Positions 775 to 8,108 of a stretch of DNA of 23,452 nucleotides are shown here, piece after piece. A program made the translations under genes and the position numbers. Positions within the stretch are counted from its first letter, which is position 1; each line of letters opens with the position of its first letter. The stretch comes from a virus. Where the stretch lies: positions 1 to 23,452 of the IMG/VR virus record IMGVR_UViG_3300022696_000090. One strand, 5' to 3'. The notes below the pieces were generated by a model. It was not told where the DNA came from. It worked only from the letters and a program-made list of their open reading frames with translations, and ran no database searches.

Positions 775-891
775 TCTTGCCACTAAACCAGGAAAGCCAG
801 AAGAGATCTAGATCTATACCGAACACACATATGTGTGTGTGAGAGGGGTATAGAACCCGAAACCTTCTGAGGACCCTGTTTTCTGGCAAGA
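775..891. repeat. 117-nt concentric inverted repeat in an AT-rich gap (candidate origin, operator array or structured RNA)
   Basis: Paired arms are centred on about 833: TCTTGCCA 775-782 with TGGCAAGA 884-891; AAAC(C)AGG 785-792 with CCTGTTT 875-881, with one bulged C; CAGAAG 798-803 with CTTCTG 864-869; TCTATACC 813-820 with GGTATAGA 847-854. Inside lies a perfect 16-bp palindrome at 823-838, and a 12-bp palindrome AGATCTAGATCT sits at 804-815. About 29 outer pairs plus the inner palindrome could form. No open frame in the 254-bp gap (701-954) looks like a gene. The segment before it (737-770) is unusually AT-rich. Function is inferred only. Confidence 0.75.
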
Positions 892-918
892 CTTTTCTCG
901 GTTGCATATTCGCGGTTC

Positions 919-946
919 TTGCGTTTTTTGCGTGTGCTGGTTATGG
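919..946 (+). promoter_or_regulatory. Promoter for the HTH gene (leaderless type)
   Basis: TTGCGT (919-924), a 16-bp spacer and TTATGG (941-946), with an upstream TG as in extended -10 boxes. The layout matches two clearer TTGCGC-N16-TATACC promoters downstream. The GTG start lies 8 nt after the -10 box. Confidence 0.5.
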
Positions 947-3659: not shown

Positions 3660-3828
3660 CCGCGCGTTTTGGCCCAGGTCCTGGTCCGGGTCCAGGCCCA
3701 GGTCCGGGTCCGGGTCCTGGTCCTGGTCCAGGTCCTGGTCCGGGTCCGGGTCCGGGTCCTGGTCCGAGTCCGAGTCCGAGTCCGAGTCCTGGTCCTGGTC
3801 CGGGTCCAGGTCTGGGAAGGGGGACTGA
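3652..3828 (+). CDS. Possible 58-aa Ser-X repeat peptide coupled to terL
   Basis: This frame begins at an ATG that overlaps the stop of the LSm-like gene by 8 bases and ends at a TGA overlapping the terL ATG (TGATG, 3826-3830). The peptide reads (W/G/R/E)-S repeats through the hexamer array, for example SGSWSWSRSWSGSGSG. The overlaps at both ends suggest ribosomes may traverse it to reach terL. Against this, terL has its own good Shine-Dalgarno sequence (GGAAGGGGG). Variation among units falls on the first codon base in this frame, not the third, so there is no sign of selection on the peptide. Confidence 0.3.
   Translation: MHSRAFWPRSWSGSRPRSGSGSWSWSRSWSGSGSGSWSESESESESWSWSGSRSGKGD
3671..3814. 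repeat. Hexanucleotide GGTCCN tandem repeat, 24 units
   Basis: Twenty-four consecutive 6-mers run without interruption. Seventeen are GGTCCN, two are GGCCCA, four are AGTCCN (3767-3790), and the last is a degenerate GGTCTG. The last base varies as G, T or A. No reading frame on either strand is interrupted, so long artefactual frames arise on both strands. The repeat ends 13 bp before the terL start and just before its ribosome binding site. Confidence 0.95.
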
Positions 3829-5168
3829 TGCTTGACACCGCCGCCCTCGCCCGCCTCGTCTCGAGGCCGAACGTAGACCACCGCAAGCTCCTCGAGTGGG
3901 TTGTCCGGGACCATGCCGTGTTGGCCCGCCCGGAGCAGCTCCGCCCGCCGGACGCGGGGCGGTGGTGGTATATCCAGGCCGGACGGCGGTGGGGCAAAAC
4001 CTTCGCGGGCGCGAACTACACGCTCGACCTGATGGAGCGCTGGGGGCCCGACTTCTTCGGCGGCGCGTGCTCCAAAAACATGGACGAAGTGCGATATACC
4101 ATGCTCGAGGGCCCATCGGGCATGGTCACGATGGCGAAGCGGCGCGGGTACGAGATCGACTGGCAATCCGGCAACGGCCTCGCGATCCACCCGTCGGGCG
4201 CGAGACTACGGACGTTTTCCGGCGAACGCGAAGAGGTGCGAGGTATGGACGCGTCCTACTGGTGGCTGGACGAGCTGCCTTGGTGGAAGGCGCCGGTCGC
4301 GAGTTGGATCAACATCAACACGACGCTATCGCGCCGGTCACCACCTCCGGGACCGCACGGGGTCATCACGTCGAGCCCGCGCAAGCGATCCGCGATCAAT
4401 CAAAAACTCGCGCGGATGGTGGACGAAGGCGACGTCTACCTCGTCCGCGGCGCGACGAGCGACAACGCGGTGAACCTGGACCCGAACTTTTTGAAGAAGC
4501 AGCTCCGGGAAATGCAGGATCGCCAGGGTCGGTGGACGCAGACCGGCCGGCAGGAATGGCTCGGCGAGTTCCTGGACGACGGCGACGGCGGGTGGTCCCG
4601 CGAGATGATCGACGATCACCGCATCGAGGTCACGCCTTCGAGGGCGCTGGACGACATCGTGGTGGGGTACGACCCCGCAGTCACAGACACGAAGACGTCC
4701 GACGACTCGGGGATCGTCGCGGTCGGTCTTTGGCGCGATCACCAGTACGTGCTCGCGGATCGGACGCAGAGCGAGACGTCGCCCGTAGATGCGTGCGCTG
4801 TCGCGATCCGGCTCGCCAACGAGCTAGGAGAGCGGCACCACTGCCGCGCGCGCCTGGTCATCGAGGACAACCAGGGCAAGGATATGCTCCGCACGATTGT
4901 GCGCATGGCATCGGAGTTGCAAGGACTGCCCGAGCCCGACTACCAACTCGTCACCGCGACGAAGAGCAAGTCGGCCCGAGCCGAGGCCGCCGTCAATCTA
5001 TGGGAGCGCGGGTTGTGCTACATGGTGGGCGAGTTCCCCGAGCTCGAAGACCAGATGGTCGAGTGGGCCCCCGGCGGGAGCTCACCCGACCGTATGGACG
5101 CGCTCGTGCACGCGCAGCTGGCGATCGACGCCCGATCGAGCGGCGGCTCGCTTTTCTCTGGCTATTAG
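3828..5168 (+). CDS. terL: Terminase large subunit (packaging ATPase/nuclease)
   Basis: A 446-residue protein. The Walker A motif is GRRWGKT at residues 52-58, the phage-terminase variant. Walker B is YWWLDE at 144-149, with catalytic E149, and a TSSPRKRS coupling segment follows. The RNase H-like nuclease has D282 in VGYDPAVTD, E346-D347 in VIEDNQGKD and D421/D424 in PDRMDALVHA. All elements of a complete motor are present. It drives genome packaging into proheads and cuts the concatemer. The ATG at 3828 is chosen for GGAAGGGGG 6-7 nt upstream and the TGATG overlap. The frame is open further upstream only because of the hexamer repeat. No portal gene follows, which is unusual. Confidence 0.95.
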   Translation: MLDTAALARLVSRPNVDHRKLLEWVVRDHAVLARPEQLRPPDAGRWWYIQAGRRWGKTFAGANYTLDLMERWGPDFFGGACSKNMDEVRYTMLEGPSGMVTMAKRRGYEIDWQSGNGLAIHPSGARLRTFSGEREEVRGMDASYWWLDELPWWKAPVASWININTTLSRRSPPPGPHGVITSSPRKRSAINQKLARMVDEGDVYLVRGATSDNAVNLDPNFLKKQLREMQDRQGRWTQTGRQEWLGEFLDDGDGGWSREMIDDHRIEVTPSRALDDIVVGYDPAVTDTKTSDDSGIVAVGLWRDHQYVLADRTQSETSPVDACAVAIRLANELGERHHCRARLVIEDNQGKDMLRTIVRMASELQGLPEPDYQLVTATKSKSARAEAAVNLWERGLCYMVGEFPELEDQMVEWAPGGSSPDRMDALVHAQLAIDARSSGGSLFSGY

Positions 5169-5177
5169 GCCCGATCG

Positions 5178-5186
5178 TGGTATACT
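5178..5186 (+). promoter_or_regulatory. Extended -10 promoter TGGTATACT
   Basis: TG-G-TATACT is a near-perfect extended -10 box just after the terL stop. No good -35 is present (TGGCTA at a 16-bp spacing). The ATG of the next gene lies 9 nt downstream, so the transcript would have almost no leader. Confidence 0.6.
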
Positions 5187-5195
5187 GCGACGAGC

Positions 5196-5642
5196 ATGAA
5201 AAAGGCCGAACTAGTCGAGGAGCTCGAGCAGGCACGAAAAAAGATCGCCGCGCTCGAGATCGAGCTGTCGAACCGGGAACACGACCGCGAAGACGACGTG
5301 ATCCCGGACACGACGTGGGCACAACTCCGAGCAGCGCTCGAGGGTCGGGCCGGCCTCGACGCCGACCACATGGACTTGGTCGGCGAGGCGGCCAAGGTCG
5401 TGACCGCGTATGACGCGATCCCGGACGGTGTGGAAGAGATCGCCGGGACCGTGTGGGCCTACACCGAAGGCGCGACCGACGAAGTGTGCGAGGAGGTGAC
5501 CGAAGCGTTCGAGCTGCTCCAGGCGTGGCGGGCGCACAATCTGGACGAGCTCGCTTCCGAGCTCTGGCGCTTGGGGCTGCTGAGGAACGGCATCTCGCTG
5601 TTTGAAGCGCTAGAATCCCTACTGTATAGCAGGTCAGCATGA
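5196..5642 (+). CDS. 148-aa protein with N-terminal coiled coil, unknown function
   Basis: Residues 1-32 (MKKAELVEELEQARKKIAAL and on) form a heptad-patterned coiled coil. The rest is acidic and helical (DLVGEAAKVVTAYDAI, EVCEEVTEAFELLQAW, LDELASELWRLGLLR). I do not recognise a family. It occupies the slot immediately after terL where a portal gene is normal, but is far too short and lacks portal features. It has its own extended -10 promoter and overlaps the next gene by four bases (ATGA), so it may form a toxin/antitoxin-like or regulatory pair with the ribbon-helix-helix protein downstream. That pairing is speculative. Confidence 0.7.
   Translation: MKKAELVEELEQARKKIAALEIELSNREHDREDDVIPDTTWAQLRAALEGRAGLDADHMDLVGEAAKVVTAYDAIPDGVEEIAGTVWAYTEGATDEVCEEVTEAFELLQAWRAHNLDELASELWRLGLLRNGISLFEALESLLYSRSA
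5602..5630 (+). promoter_or_regulatory. Promoter TTGAAG-N17-TATAGC for the small ribbon-helix-helix gene
   Basis: TTGAAG 5602-5607, 17 bp, TATAGC 5625-5630, with TG immediately before the -10. It lies inside the 3' end of the preceding gene and 8 nt before the next ATG (5639). The spacing matches the other leaderless-type promoters in this window. Confidence 0.5.
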
Positions 5643-5821
5643 GCGACCTGTACCGCGGAACCCGGAAGCACGTGCAGTTCAAGCTGCGCGGCGACCTTTA
5701 CGCGCTCATCGAGCGGACCTACCCGGGGCAGTCCGTGAACACCGCCGCGCGGGACCTGCTAGAGGAACTACTGCAGCGCGATCTCGACGCCGAGCGCGGC
5801 GAGCCTGTCTCGGATCTCTAG
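5639..5821 (+). CDS. 60-aa ribbon-helix-helix protein
   Basis: The pattern KHVQFKLRGDLYALIERTYPGQSVNTAARDLLEELLQRDLD (about residues 10-50) fits a ribbon-helix-helix fold. One basic/hydrophobic strand (VQFKL) is followed by two helices separated by the PGQSVN turn. Such proteins are dimeric repressors or antitoxins. It starts with an ATGA overlap on the upstream gene and has a promoter of its own. Its last 54 bases overlap the 3' end of the converging kinase-like gene on the other strand, with no terminator between them. It may act on the divergent promoters at 6498-6548, but this is only suggested by proximity. Confidence 0.65.
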   Translation: MSDLYRGTRKHVQFKLRGDLYALIERTYPGQSVNTAARDLLEELLQRDLDAERGEPVSDL

Positions 5822-6139
5822 CCAGATCTTGGCACAGCCCTTGCCCATGCGCGCCTGCCCGGGCGTGAGAGCGATCCACGGCTTCGAGAGCCAGATCACG
5901 CGGTCGCACGGTTTTGCGCCTGGGTGCAGCGCCATGAACTTGCGCAACGCGCGGACGGTAGCCGTTCCCTCGATGACCCACGGCCCAGGCTCGGTCATCC
6001 ACTCGTCCGCGACGATCCGAGAGCACTCGGACCAGTCCGCCTCGCCGATGAGGTCGTCGGTGTGCATGACCCGCCCGCCGAGCTTATCGGCGAGCGTGGT
6101 CTTTCCTACGCGAGGACCGCCGGCGATCACGACTCGCAC
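5768..6139 (-). CDS. P-loop kinase-like protein, 123 aa
   Basis: The N-terminus MRVVIAGGPRVGKTTLADKLG carries a Walker A motif GGPRVGKT at residues 7-14. HTDDLIG (about 26-32) sits where small kinases have their DD/DxD substrate motif, and PWVIEGTATVRALRK matches the lid-side helix of adenylate/shikimate-kinase-like folds. RVIWLSKPW provides a later core strand. It probably phosphorylates a small metabolite or nucleotide, but the substrate cannot be told. It is short, and the adenine-binding C-terminal helix looks abbreviated. The GTG start at 6139 overlaps the upstream gene's TAG (TAGTG), so it is the second gene of a minus-strand pair. It is convergent with, and overlaps, the 5639-5821 gene. 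Confidence 0.75.
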   Translation of the reverse strand: MRVVIAGGPRVGKTTLADKLGGRVMHTDDLIGEADWSECSRIVADEWMTEPGPWVIEGTATVRALRKFMALHPGAKPCDRVIWLSKPWIALTPGQARMGKGCAKIWLEIRDRLAALGVEIALQ

Positions 6140-6489
6140 TACGCATCCTCTTTAGAGGCGAGGAGATCGCATCGTTCAAGCTGCGTTTCATAGGCCTCGA
6201 CAAGCGTGGCCAACACTTCGATCCTGTCTTCGTGAGCCGCTTTTGGCTTCTCCCGGTTCATGCGCGCAAGTCGATCGATTTCCCGAAGGCTTCTTTCGTA
6301 CTCCTGCTCGTTCTTGATCGACGGCGCCCCCTCTTTAGGGGCGAGAGCACCCATGATGATCTGCCGGTACAGCTCCGCCCTTGTGATCCCCCGCACGAGT
6401 GCGGCGTCTACGGCGCGGTGGTGCACCTCCCACGGGACACGCGTGGACGCGATAGGTCGAGCTCCCTGGCCTGGTTTGTTGCGGTTCAT
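6139..6489 (-). CDS. Ribbon-helix-helix DNA-binding protein with acidic helical tail
   Basis: A 116-residue protein. Residues about 14-49 (STRVPWEVHHRAVDAALVRGITRAELYRQIIMGAL) match a ribbon-helix-helix: strand STRVPW, helix EVHHRAVDAALVRG, turn ITRAELYR, second helix. A helical tail follows (EYERSLREIDRLARM, EVLATLVEAYETQLE) and may mediate oligomerisation. The start ATG at 6489 lies 8 nt after a good -10 box, and only GAG stands in as ribosome binding site, so the mRNA is probably leaderless. It is the first gene of the minus-strand pair and is divergent from the head operon. It is a good candidate for a repressor of one or both promoters at 6498-6548. Confidence 0.75.
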   Translation of the reverse strand: MNRNKPGQGARPIASTRVPWEVHHRAVDAALVRGITRAELYRQIIMGALAPKEGAPSIKNEQEYERSLREIDRLARMNREKPKAAHEDRIEVLATLVEAYETQLERCDLLASKEDA

Positions 6490-6497
6490 ACGCTCAC

Positions 6498-6525
6498 AGA
6501 TTACACGGTGGCCCGGGACTTGCAA
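6498..6525 (-). promoter_or_regulatory. Minus-strand promoter TTGCAA-N16-TAATCT
   Basis: On the minus strand, TTGCAA (6525-6520), 16 bp, TAATCT (6503-6498), with TG directly before the -10. The ATG at 6489 follows after 8 nt. The -35 hexamer TTGCAA is its own reverse complement and also serves the plus-strand promoter at 6520-6548. Confidence 0.65.
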
Positions 6526-6548
6526 CATACCGGCCCGGCGAGTAGAAT
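6520..6548 (+). promoter_or_regulatory. Head-operon promoter TTGCAA-N17-TAGAAT, sharing its -35 with the divergent promoter
   Basis: TTGCAA 6520-6525, 17 bp, TAGAAT 6543-6548. The ATG at 6555 is 6 nt downstream, predicting a leaderless transcript. This is the only clear promoter ahead of the head genes, so it probably drives the capsid and neck operon. Polymerase cannot occupy both promoters at once if both use the same palindromic hexamer. Confidence 0.65.
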
Positions 6549-6554
6549 GCGCAC

Positions 6555-6764
6555 ATGCCCGATCCGTCCCTCGAGGAGCAGATCCAGAGCGTCCGCGAAG
6601 CCGTTGCTGAGCTGAGCGACGGCAAGTGGGACAAAGGCGATGCGAAGGCGATCGTTGTCCTGGCCGGCGCGCTCGCTGCGTTCCTCGCCCTCGGTCTCGA
6701 GGCCGCGCACATGGCAGGTTTGTTTGCTGACGATCCGGTCGAGGCGAGCACCGATGGTGGTTGA
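6555..6764 (+). CDS. 69-aa small membrane protein
   Basis: The N-terminus is an acidic amphipathic helix (LEEQIQSVREAVAELSDGKWDKGD). Residues about 32-54 (AIVVLAGALAAFLALGLEAAHMAGL) form one transmembrane segment, and a short acidic tail follows. This is the first gene of the head operon, beginning 6 nt after the -10 box. Coiled helix plus a single membrane segment occurs in XhlA-like holin accessories and other phage membrane proteins; a precise role cannot be assigned. The next small gene starts inside it, with an 11-base overlap. Confidence 0.65.
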   Translation: MPDPSLEEQIQSVREAVAELSDGKWDKGDAKAIVVLAGALAAFLALGLEAAHMAGLFADDPVEASTDGG

Positions 6765-6894
6765 CATCCTGGCTGTACCCGGCGCGCCGGGGCACGTGGA
6801 AGCGCGCAGAAACCGCTGGGCACGTCTCGCACGTCTCCGGGGTGCGGCGCGCAAACGCGCGATTGCGTCTCGGGTTCGGAGGGCGACGCAATGA
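6754..6894 (+). CDS. 46-aa arginine-rich protein
   Basis: The ATG at 6754 overlaps the upstream gene by 11 bases, and the TGA overlaps the protease gene ATG (ATGA at 6891), so the frame forms a continuous translational chain between two well-supported genes. The product is strongly basic: after MVVDILAVPGAPGHV it is dominated by arginine and alanine (EARRNRWARLARLRGAARKR and on). Such a short basic peptide could bind nucleic acid or be a capsid accessory. It could also serve merely to couple translation. No family is recognised. Confidence 0.5.
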   Translation: MVVDILAVPGAPGHVEARRNRWARLARLRGAARKRAIASRVRRATQ

Positions 6895-8108
6895 CGCGCG
6901 TCATGCGCATCGACCGGTTGTCGTGCGTTCTCGACTTCGACGCGCCAGCGCCGTCGCCGCAGGCGGCGAGTGCGCGATACACCGACGAGGGTTTCCTCGT
7001 GGTGGACGCGTATCTAGCGCGTGATGGCCTGCTCCAGTACTCCGACGGGACGCGCGTGTGGAACGAGTACCGGCCCGCGAGCGAGCTCGCTGCCGCCGCC
7101 GACTCGTTCCAGCACGCGCCGATCACGGACGACCATCCGCCGGAAATGGTAACGGCCGCGAACGCTAGTCAGTACGTGCGAGGCGTCGTTTTGAACGATG
7201 TCCGGACGGAAACGCTCGACGGTGTGACTTATCTCCGAGGGACGCTCCGGGTCATGGACGCGGCCCTAATCCAGAAGATCCACGACGGCCAGCGCGAACT
7301 CTCCATCGGTATGTGGAGTCGCGTCGAAGTCCGGGACGGTGTGTATCGCGGCGAGCGTTTCGACGCGGTACAAACCGACTGTGAGGGTAATCACCTCGCG
7401 TCGGTTCAACGAGGGCGTGCTGGTTCGTCCGTCCGCGTGTTTATGGACAATGCGCAGATCCCGGTCCATTATGGGGGGGCAATCACGATGGCAAAACCGA
7501 GCACCGATCCGCAACCCGAACGCCAGGACGAGGTAGGCGCGCCAGTCACGGAGGCGAAACTCGTCGGCCCCGACGGCCAAGAGATCATGGTCCCGACGTG
7601 GGTCGCTGCCGCGGTCGAGGAACTCCGCGAGATGCGCGAGAAGCAGGCCGCCGCTGAAGAGCCCGCTGAAGAGCCCGCTGAAGAGCCCGCTGAAGAGCCC
7701 GCTGAAGAGCCTGTCGAGCCCGCCGAGCCTGTCGAAGATGAAGACGAAGACGACGAAGAGATGAGCATGGACGAAATCAACCGACGAGTACGCCGGCGCG
7801 TCCGGCTGGAACGCCTTGCGCTGCGAGCTGACCTGGACGTCGACGCTATGGACGATGCAGGGGACGACGATCTCGCGCGCGCTTTCGTGGCGTCGGTCAT
7901 GCCACGCCACAAGGATCGCGCCGACAAAGCGGCCGGAGAGGTGCTTGATGCCCTCGTCGAGATCGCTTCGGCTGAGCTTGCCGCACGGCCTAAGCCCGAA
8001 GCGGCGAACCCGTTCGAGCGCCGGCGCAAGGTCGCCGATGCGGATGATGACCCTATCGCGGCAGCCGAAGTCCGCGCCATTGCCCGATCCCTCGGGCTGC
8101 AGGAGTAA
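6891..8108 (+). CDS. Prohead protease/scaffold fusion, DUF2213-like
   Basis: A 405-residue protein. Residues about 25-200 carry the DUF2213 pattern: ARYTDEGFLVVDAYLARDGLLQYSDG, VWNEYRPASEL, HAPITDDHPPEMV, RGVVLNDVRTE, YLRGTLRVMDAAL, GQRELSIGMWSRVEV. H and S of DDHPP and ELSIG are the likely catalytic residues. After about residue 205 it becomes a helical, acidic scaffold with an EEPA repeat (about 254-274) and a poly-acidic stretch, as expected for a scaffold clipped during maturation. A possible internal start at 7489 (ATGGCAAAACCG) would yield a separate scaffold protein. The ATGA overlap at 6891 couples it to the upstream gene. The decoration and capsid genes follow directly. Confidence 0.85.
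   Translation: MTRVMRIDRLSCVLDFDAPAPSPQAASARYTDEGFLVVDAYLARDGLLQYSDGTRVWNEYRPASELAAAADSFQHAPITDDHPPEMVTAANASQYVRGVVLNDVRTETLDGVTYLRGTLRVMDAALIQKIHDGQRELSIGMWSRVEVRDGVYRGERFDAVQTDCEGNHLASVQRGRAGSSVRVFMDNAQIPVHYGGAITMAKPSTDPQPERQDEVGAPVTEAKLVGPDGQEIMVPTWVAAAVEELREMREKQAAAEEPAEEPAEEPAEEPAEEPVEPAEPVEDEDEDDEEMSMDEINRRVRRRVRLERLALRADLDVDAMDDAGDDDLARAFVASVMPRHKDRADKAAGEVLDALVEIASAELAARPKPEAANPFERRRKVADADDDPIAAAEVRAIARSLGLQE
7653..7712 (+). repeat. 12-bp tandem repeat GCTGAAGAGCCC, five copies
   Basis: Five head-to-tail copies in frame encode (AEEP)5 in the scaffold region of the protease protein; the fifth ends in CCT. The copies are otherwise identical at the DNA level, which suggests recent slippage expansion. 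Confidence 0.95.

Follow-up and report, generated by a model that had tools for sequence, protein, structure and literature searches.

A strongly folding 117-nt hairpin in an AT-rich, non-coding gap of a myovirus-like phage genome fragment: a candidate structured RNA

Background

6S RNA (Rfam RF00013) folds into a long rod, in which an internal loop separates a lower from an upper stem. Lambdoid control regions combine a small repressor gene with a palindromic site lying beside it, of which a second copy precedes another operon. In phages, small RNAs have been described from intergenic gaps, such as 24B_1 of Phi24B, whose mature RNA is only 20 nt long (PMC10732415), and the Pas sRNAs (PMC13192938). 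Protelomerase targets, of the phage N15 telRL type (TelN, PMC12624138), are also located in phage gaps and feature a central palindrome with flanking inverted repeats. The locus described here, a long imperfect hairpin between a terminator and a gene for a putative regulator, shares some traits with each of these systems and departs from all of them in others.

Results

The window, i.e. the whole stretch of DNA analyzed, is a fragment of 23,452 bases from a virus record, with a GC content of 65%. Recognized genes code for the terminase large subunit, a DUF2213-type head protease, the major head protein, the tail sheath, the tape measure, the baseplate hub and baseplate J: the fragment is that of a myovirus-like tailed phage. 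Judging from sequence comparison, its lineage is divergent and distant from the compared sequences. The best terminase identities, 33% among annotated phages and 38% among viral contigs (alignment search), are too remote to help, and no match to the tail sheath was found among annotated phages. Protein patterns of the upstream ORF, the helix-turn-helix (HTH) ORF, the terminase and the tail sheath retrieved no homologue from viral contigs, nor from genomes; the tail sheath was not found among about 1,090 genomes of three phyla, in a search run without a positive control. Blastn and tblastn searches with the gap and its neighboring genes against phages returned nothing, save the terminase at no more than 33% identity.

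Some further features of the fragment were observed. No portal gene was recognized between terminase and head protease (5170-6890), where small genes are found instead, two of them on the minus strand: ORF 5768-6139, kinase-like with a P-loop by eye, and 6139-6564, a possible regulator. An array of 23 copies of the 6-base unit GGTCCG (3677-3816), open in several frames, lies directly 5' of the terminase large-subunit gene and probably extends the called ORF falsely, the true start being at about 3828. Within the DUF2213 protease gene, a perfect 12-base repeat, CCGCTGAAGAGC, occurs five times (7651-7711) and gives rise to a PAEE repeat in the protein.

The feature under study is an imperfect hairpin of 117 nt, at positions 775 to 891, defined by folding, shuffles and a window scan and assigned to neither strand. 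Its stem consists of P1 (775-782/884-891, 8 bp), P2 (785-788 plus 790-792/875-881, 7 bp with a one-base bulge), P3 (a perfect arm of 6 bp, 798-803/864-869, extended to 797-803/864-871 in the fold), P4 (813-820/847-854, 8 bp) and an apical P5 (824-830/835-841 in the fold). A 16-bp palindrome, ACACACATATGTGTGT, at 823-838, is contained within the apex. All four arm pairs and the palindrome are present where the original prediction had placed them. The single common center near 833, also claimed there, has to be abandoned: the outer arms center on 833-833.5 and the palindrome on 830.5, the sums of paired positions being 1666 for P1 and the first part of P2, 1667 for P3 and P4, and 1661 for the palindrome. 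Because of this difference in centers, an asymmetric internal loop, of 3 nt versus 5 nt in the fold, is found below the apex. Center offsets of 0.5 and 3 nt are easier to reconcile with a single strand folded on itself than with a strict DNA dyad.

Folding is much stronger than expected for the composition. The RNA minimum free energy of the 775-891 region is -44.5 kcal/mol on the plus and -50.5 kcal/mol on the minus strand, whereas the shuffled sequences average -24.9 and -28.1; this corresponds to z values of -5.9 and -6.6, and none of 1500 dinucleotide shuffles folded as well. A fold energy well under that of dinucleotide shuffles, as looked for in a structured RNA under selection, is thus found, and the claim that the structure exceeds chance is borne out. 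The outer arms are significant alone: with the apical palindrome swapped for GAAA, they still beat all 1500 shuffles, with a z of -5.7 on both strands, and are therefore not a product of the AC/GT run. With DNA folding parameters, z is -5.3. When 117-mers were taken from the window in steps of three bases, the hairpin came out clearly on top on the plus as well as the minus strand, with regression z values of -5.57 (plus) and -6.27 (minus), the runners-up reaching -4.47 and -4.46.

Applied to 719 kb of other phage loci, in steps of 15 bases along one strand, the same statistic gives 18 sites with a z of about -5.5 or lower, or roughly one in 40 kb. Several consist of a single hairpin of about 100 nt and are located either in gaps or within ORFs. 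Given this frequency in control phage DNA, the hairpin is real and non-random, unusual but not extraordinary, and belongs to a fairly common class, with about one member per phage genome. That phage hairpins this strong are not rare is the result of broader import. As a separate observation, a 4.6-kb viral contig (L012) contains two very strong hairpins (1441-1557 and 3976-4092, z about -8), one of them directly 3' of that contig's terminase match.

Relatives of the hairpin were searched for as well. A covariance model of the hairpin, run over 742 kb, matched only itself, and a pattern of the arms found 9 viral and 34 genome matches, none with matching 3' arms. An exact 18-mer of the right arm, present in one viral contig, was discarded as a chance match, being located there inside an ORF and unfolded. 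TAGAACCCGAAACC resembles a stretch of 23S rRNA, presumably by chance.

Both the frequency of such hairpins in other phage loci, some of them within genes, and the failure to find the arm-sequence element elsewhere, in viral contigs or genomes, would agree with a neutral quasi-palindrome, generated by inverted duplication (template switch) or left as the decaying remnant of a small hairpin element. We regard this origin as unlikely, since near-symmetric loops break up the arms and yet leave entire blocks perfect, and the hairpin is located in an AT-rich gap flanked on both sides by terminator-like sites.

The gap was rightly described as non-coding: a minus-strand ORF crossing it has a GC3 of 0.48, versus about 0.8 in real genes of this fragment, and the GC3 bias seen in the genes is lacking from every open reading frame in the gap. 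It is also AT-rich, as stated, the two lowest-GC 200-bp windows beginning at 641 and 731. To the left of the hairpin, where a terminator had been proposed, an intrinsic one is located on the plus strand at 706-735 (10-pair stem, 4-nt loop, T7), serving the upstream gene. The latter had been called a replication gene, a designation without backing from Pfam, PHROG, PDB or phage matches; the gene is cut by the contig end, and a fold model of its product, with a pLDDT of 34, is of no use. The terminator is followed on the plus strand by an AT-rich stretch (735-770), with about 15% GC versus 65% for the genome, holding -10-like boxes, namely TATATT at 764-769 and TAGTAT at 759-764, the second 18 nt after TTGATC (735-740). 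The predicted plus-strand transcript start falls at about 771-777, and TATATT would place it within 1-2 nt of the 5' base of the hairpin. A strict consensus promoter scan of 600-1300 found no promoter, either for the HTH gene, to which one had been ascribed on the right, or otherwise; hence the view of the region as transcriptionally separate is unsupported, and the hairpin is separated from the gene by another U6 terminator-like site, at 911-929.

Where the GC content of the window is lowest, an AT-rich stretch adjoins a long inverted repeat with a significant DNA fold. Together they might mark a site of replication or recombination: an origin, in which 735-770 would unwind next to a dyad able to form a cruciform, or a palindrome for telomere resolution of the protelomerase type. 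We hold this to be distinctly unlikely. The origin considered in the original prediction is not accompanied by any iteron-like repeat family, no replication initiator or protelomerase was recognized among the window's genes, and the neighbor called a replication gene has no recognizable replication domain; the GC-skew profile is uninformative because position 833 is at the fragment edge. Offset centers and about 40% arm mismatches are ill-suited to a resolvase site: as a gapless dyad, the region has 32 of 60 positions paired (window mean 16.2, sd 3.7), far from a near-perfect single-center palindrome, and is second in the window outside a tandem array, comparable with many others.

On the plus strand, the hairpin is directly followed by a T-rich tail, CTTTTCTC (892-899, 5 T out of 8), a weak terminator tail which has no equivalent on the minus strand. 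The weak terminator-like site at 911-929 (plus strand) ends in T6 at 924-929. An alternative weak plus-strand terminator may form at 886-929, where GCAAGA (886-891) pairs with TCTTGC (917-922), followed by GT6, and the 8-mer GTTCTTGC at 773-780 recurs at 915-922. The 886-929 terminator alone is worth -8.2 kcal/mol, and imposing it on the full transcript makes the fold 7.4 kcal/mol less favorable than the one with the hairpin; the hairpin should therefore win unless its 5' arm is missing. The presence of GTTCTTGC at both places raises the prospect of an RNA switch of an undescribed type, in which the 117-nt stem and the terminator compete for the strand. This is very improbable; were it true, read-through into the repressor gene would be set by formation of P1, which could hinge, for instance, on the transcription start or on protein binding at the apex.

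The gene to the right, at 955-1206 on the plus strand, codes for an HTH protein of 83 aa, in a frame open from 919 and with an alternative start at 943. A lambda-repressor-like (XRE) fold is predicted by a model with a pLDDT of 75, for which the top Foldseek matches are mostly XRE/Cro-type DNA-binding domains, with no significant E-value. By this model, the protein is a possible regulator of the gap. Farther on, two short genes, starting at GTG 1226 and ATG 2772, have the upstream element TTGCGCC-N14-GCGGTATACC(G/A)AAG in common (1192-1228 and 2738-2774), with TATACC exactly 6 nt 5' of both start codons, an arrangement expected if both have leaderless promoters of a single class; GGTATACC is absent from the window beyond these two segments. 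Searched as a pattern, the promoter-like motif matched one unrelated coding family only. The left arm of the hairpin was also considered as a copy of the promoter-like TATACCGAA, and this was rejected, the similarity being under the shuffle level.

Which strand would be transcribed is indicated differently by different data. Flanking sequences favor the plus strand. The minus strand folds 6 kcal/mol better, which counts against a plus-strand RNA, and the stem mismatches comprise four A-C pairs on the plus strand, equivalent to G-U on the minus strand, and none of the reverse kind, a split weakly in favor of the minus strand (one-sided probability about 1 in 16). The region and its flanks have no match in Rfam at the gathering threshold; at E <= 10 only chance-level matches were found, mostly on the terminator.

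A different function is suggested by the apex, which contains on the plus strand the inverted repeat CCGAACACACA-N6-TGTGTG (819-841), itself including the palindrome, as a candidate operator. A second plus-strand site, CCGTACACACA-N6-TGTGTG at 2052-2074, lies 39 bp before a terminase small-subunit candidate (2113), within an inverted repeat with a 13-bp stem (2048-2080). In the window, CCGWACACACA-N6-TGTGTG occurs without mismatch only at these two positions; this pattern, absent from the original prediction, suggests a shared operator. The lambda-repressor-like protein, or another phage DNA-binding protein, could bind both sites and tie its own control to that of the late operon, the outer arms being further half-sites or incidental. 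In shuffled sequences, only 0.04 matches with up to 3 mismatches are expected, ACACACA is absent elsewhere on the plus strand of the 23 kb, and both sites are in upstream gaps, one adjacent to a gene with a repressor-like fold model. For the apex at least, the common site speaks for a DNA operator and against a plus-strand RNA. The pattern was, however, defined post hoc, from the two sites themselves, and the same 6-mer half-site and spacer occur at two places, anywhere in the window, in 61 of 100 shuffles, so that a coincidence is made unlikely solely by their placement in two gaps (about 1e-3, by our estimate). Several registers are possible in the (AC)n/(GT)n run, and the outer 29 bp, significant alone, are left unexplained. 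An operator region is, on balance, somewhat unlikely. The operator array earlier proposed for the HTH protein is somewhat strengthened, as a reading, by the second site of like form upstream of the small-terminase candidate; a structured RNA fits better.

Directly 5' of the small-terminase candidate, adjacent inverted repeats, TGTGCCGTACACACAG../..CTGTGTGCGGTACAC and CTGTAA../..TTACAG, are found at 2048-2105, and are a candidate late operator or packaging site.

Discussion

Among the functions initially envisaged for this locus, a structured RNA is the best fit, being supported by one long interrupted stem, a non-coding gap and a terminator at the left end. We hold it as likely as not that the hairpin forms a compact plus-strand RNA, about 120 nt long, or acts as structured leader to the lambda-repressor-like gene. 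RNA polymerase would start in the AT-rich DNA, at about 771-777, transcribe the hairpin beginning with its first base and, in part of the cases, halt either at the U-rich tail (892-899) or at the T6 stretch (924-929). The product would be an RNA of about 120-155 nt, compact and resistant to nucleases. Polymerases reading through would enter the regulator gene at 955, for which the hairpin would double as leader; once P1 has formed, the competing weak terminator at 886-929 could not form.

A structured RNA would be an undescribed phage RNA, without Rfam relatives, beside a repressor-like gene, while an operator would link a regulator to the packaging genes of a putatively divergent myovirus lineage. 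Both outcomes would add a small, useful annotation, and neither would be surprising.

As a candidate small RNA in a non-coding gap, the hairpin is comparable to 24B_1 and the Pas sRNAs; similarity in sequence to them is not expected, and the RNA proposed here is a predicted one. It recalls 6S RNA for the internal loop, at about 804-812/855-863, between lower and upper stem, but is not matched by the 6S family of Rfam even at E <= 10 and, at 117 nt, is short for a 6S RNA. The central palindrome and flanking inverted repeats in a phage gap are reminiscent of protelomerase targets, from which the hairpin differs by its offset centers and heavily mismatched arms, no protelomerase gene being recognized in the fragment. 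In comparison with lambdoid control, spacing and sequence of the candidate operators are unlike those of the repressors known to us, and the long outer stem is without counterpart; the likeness consists in the small repressor-like gene beside a palindromic site, with a second copy before another operon.
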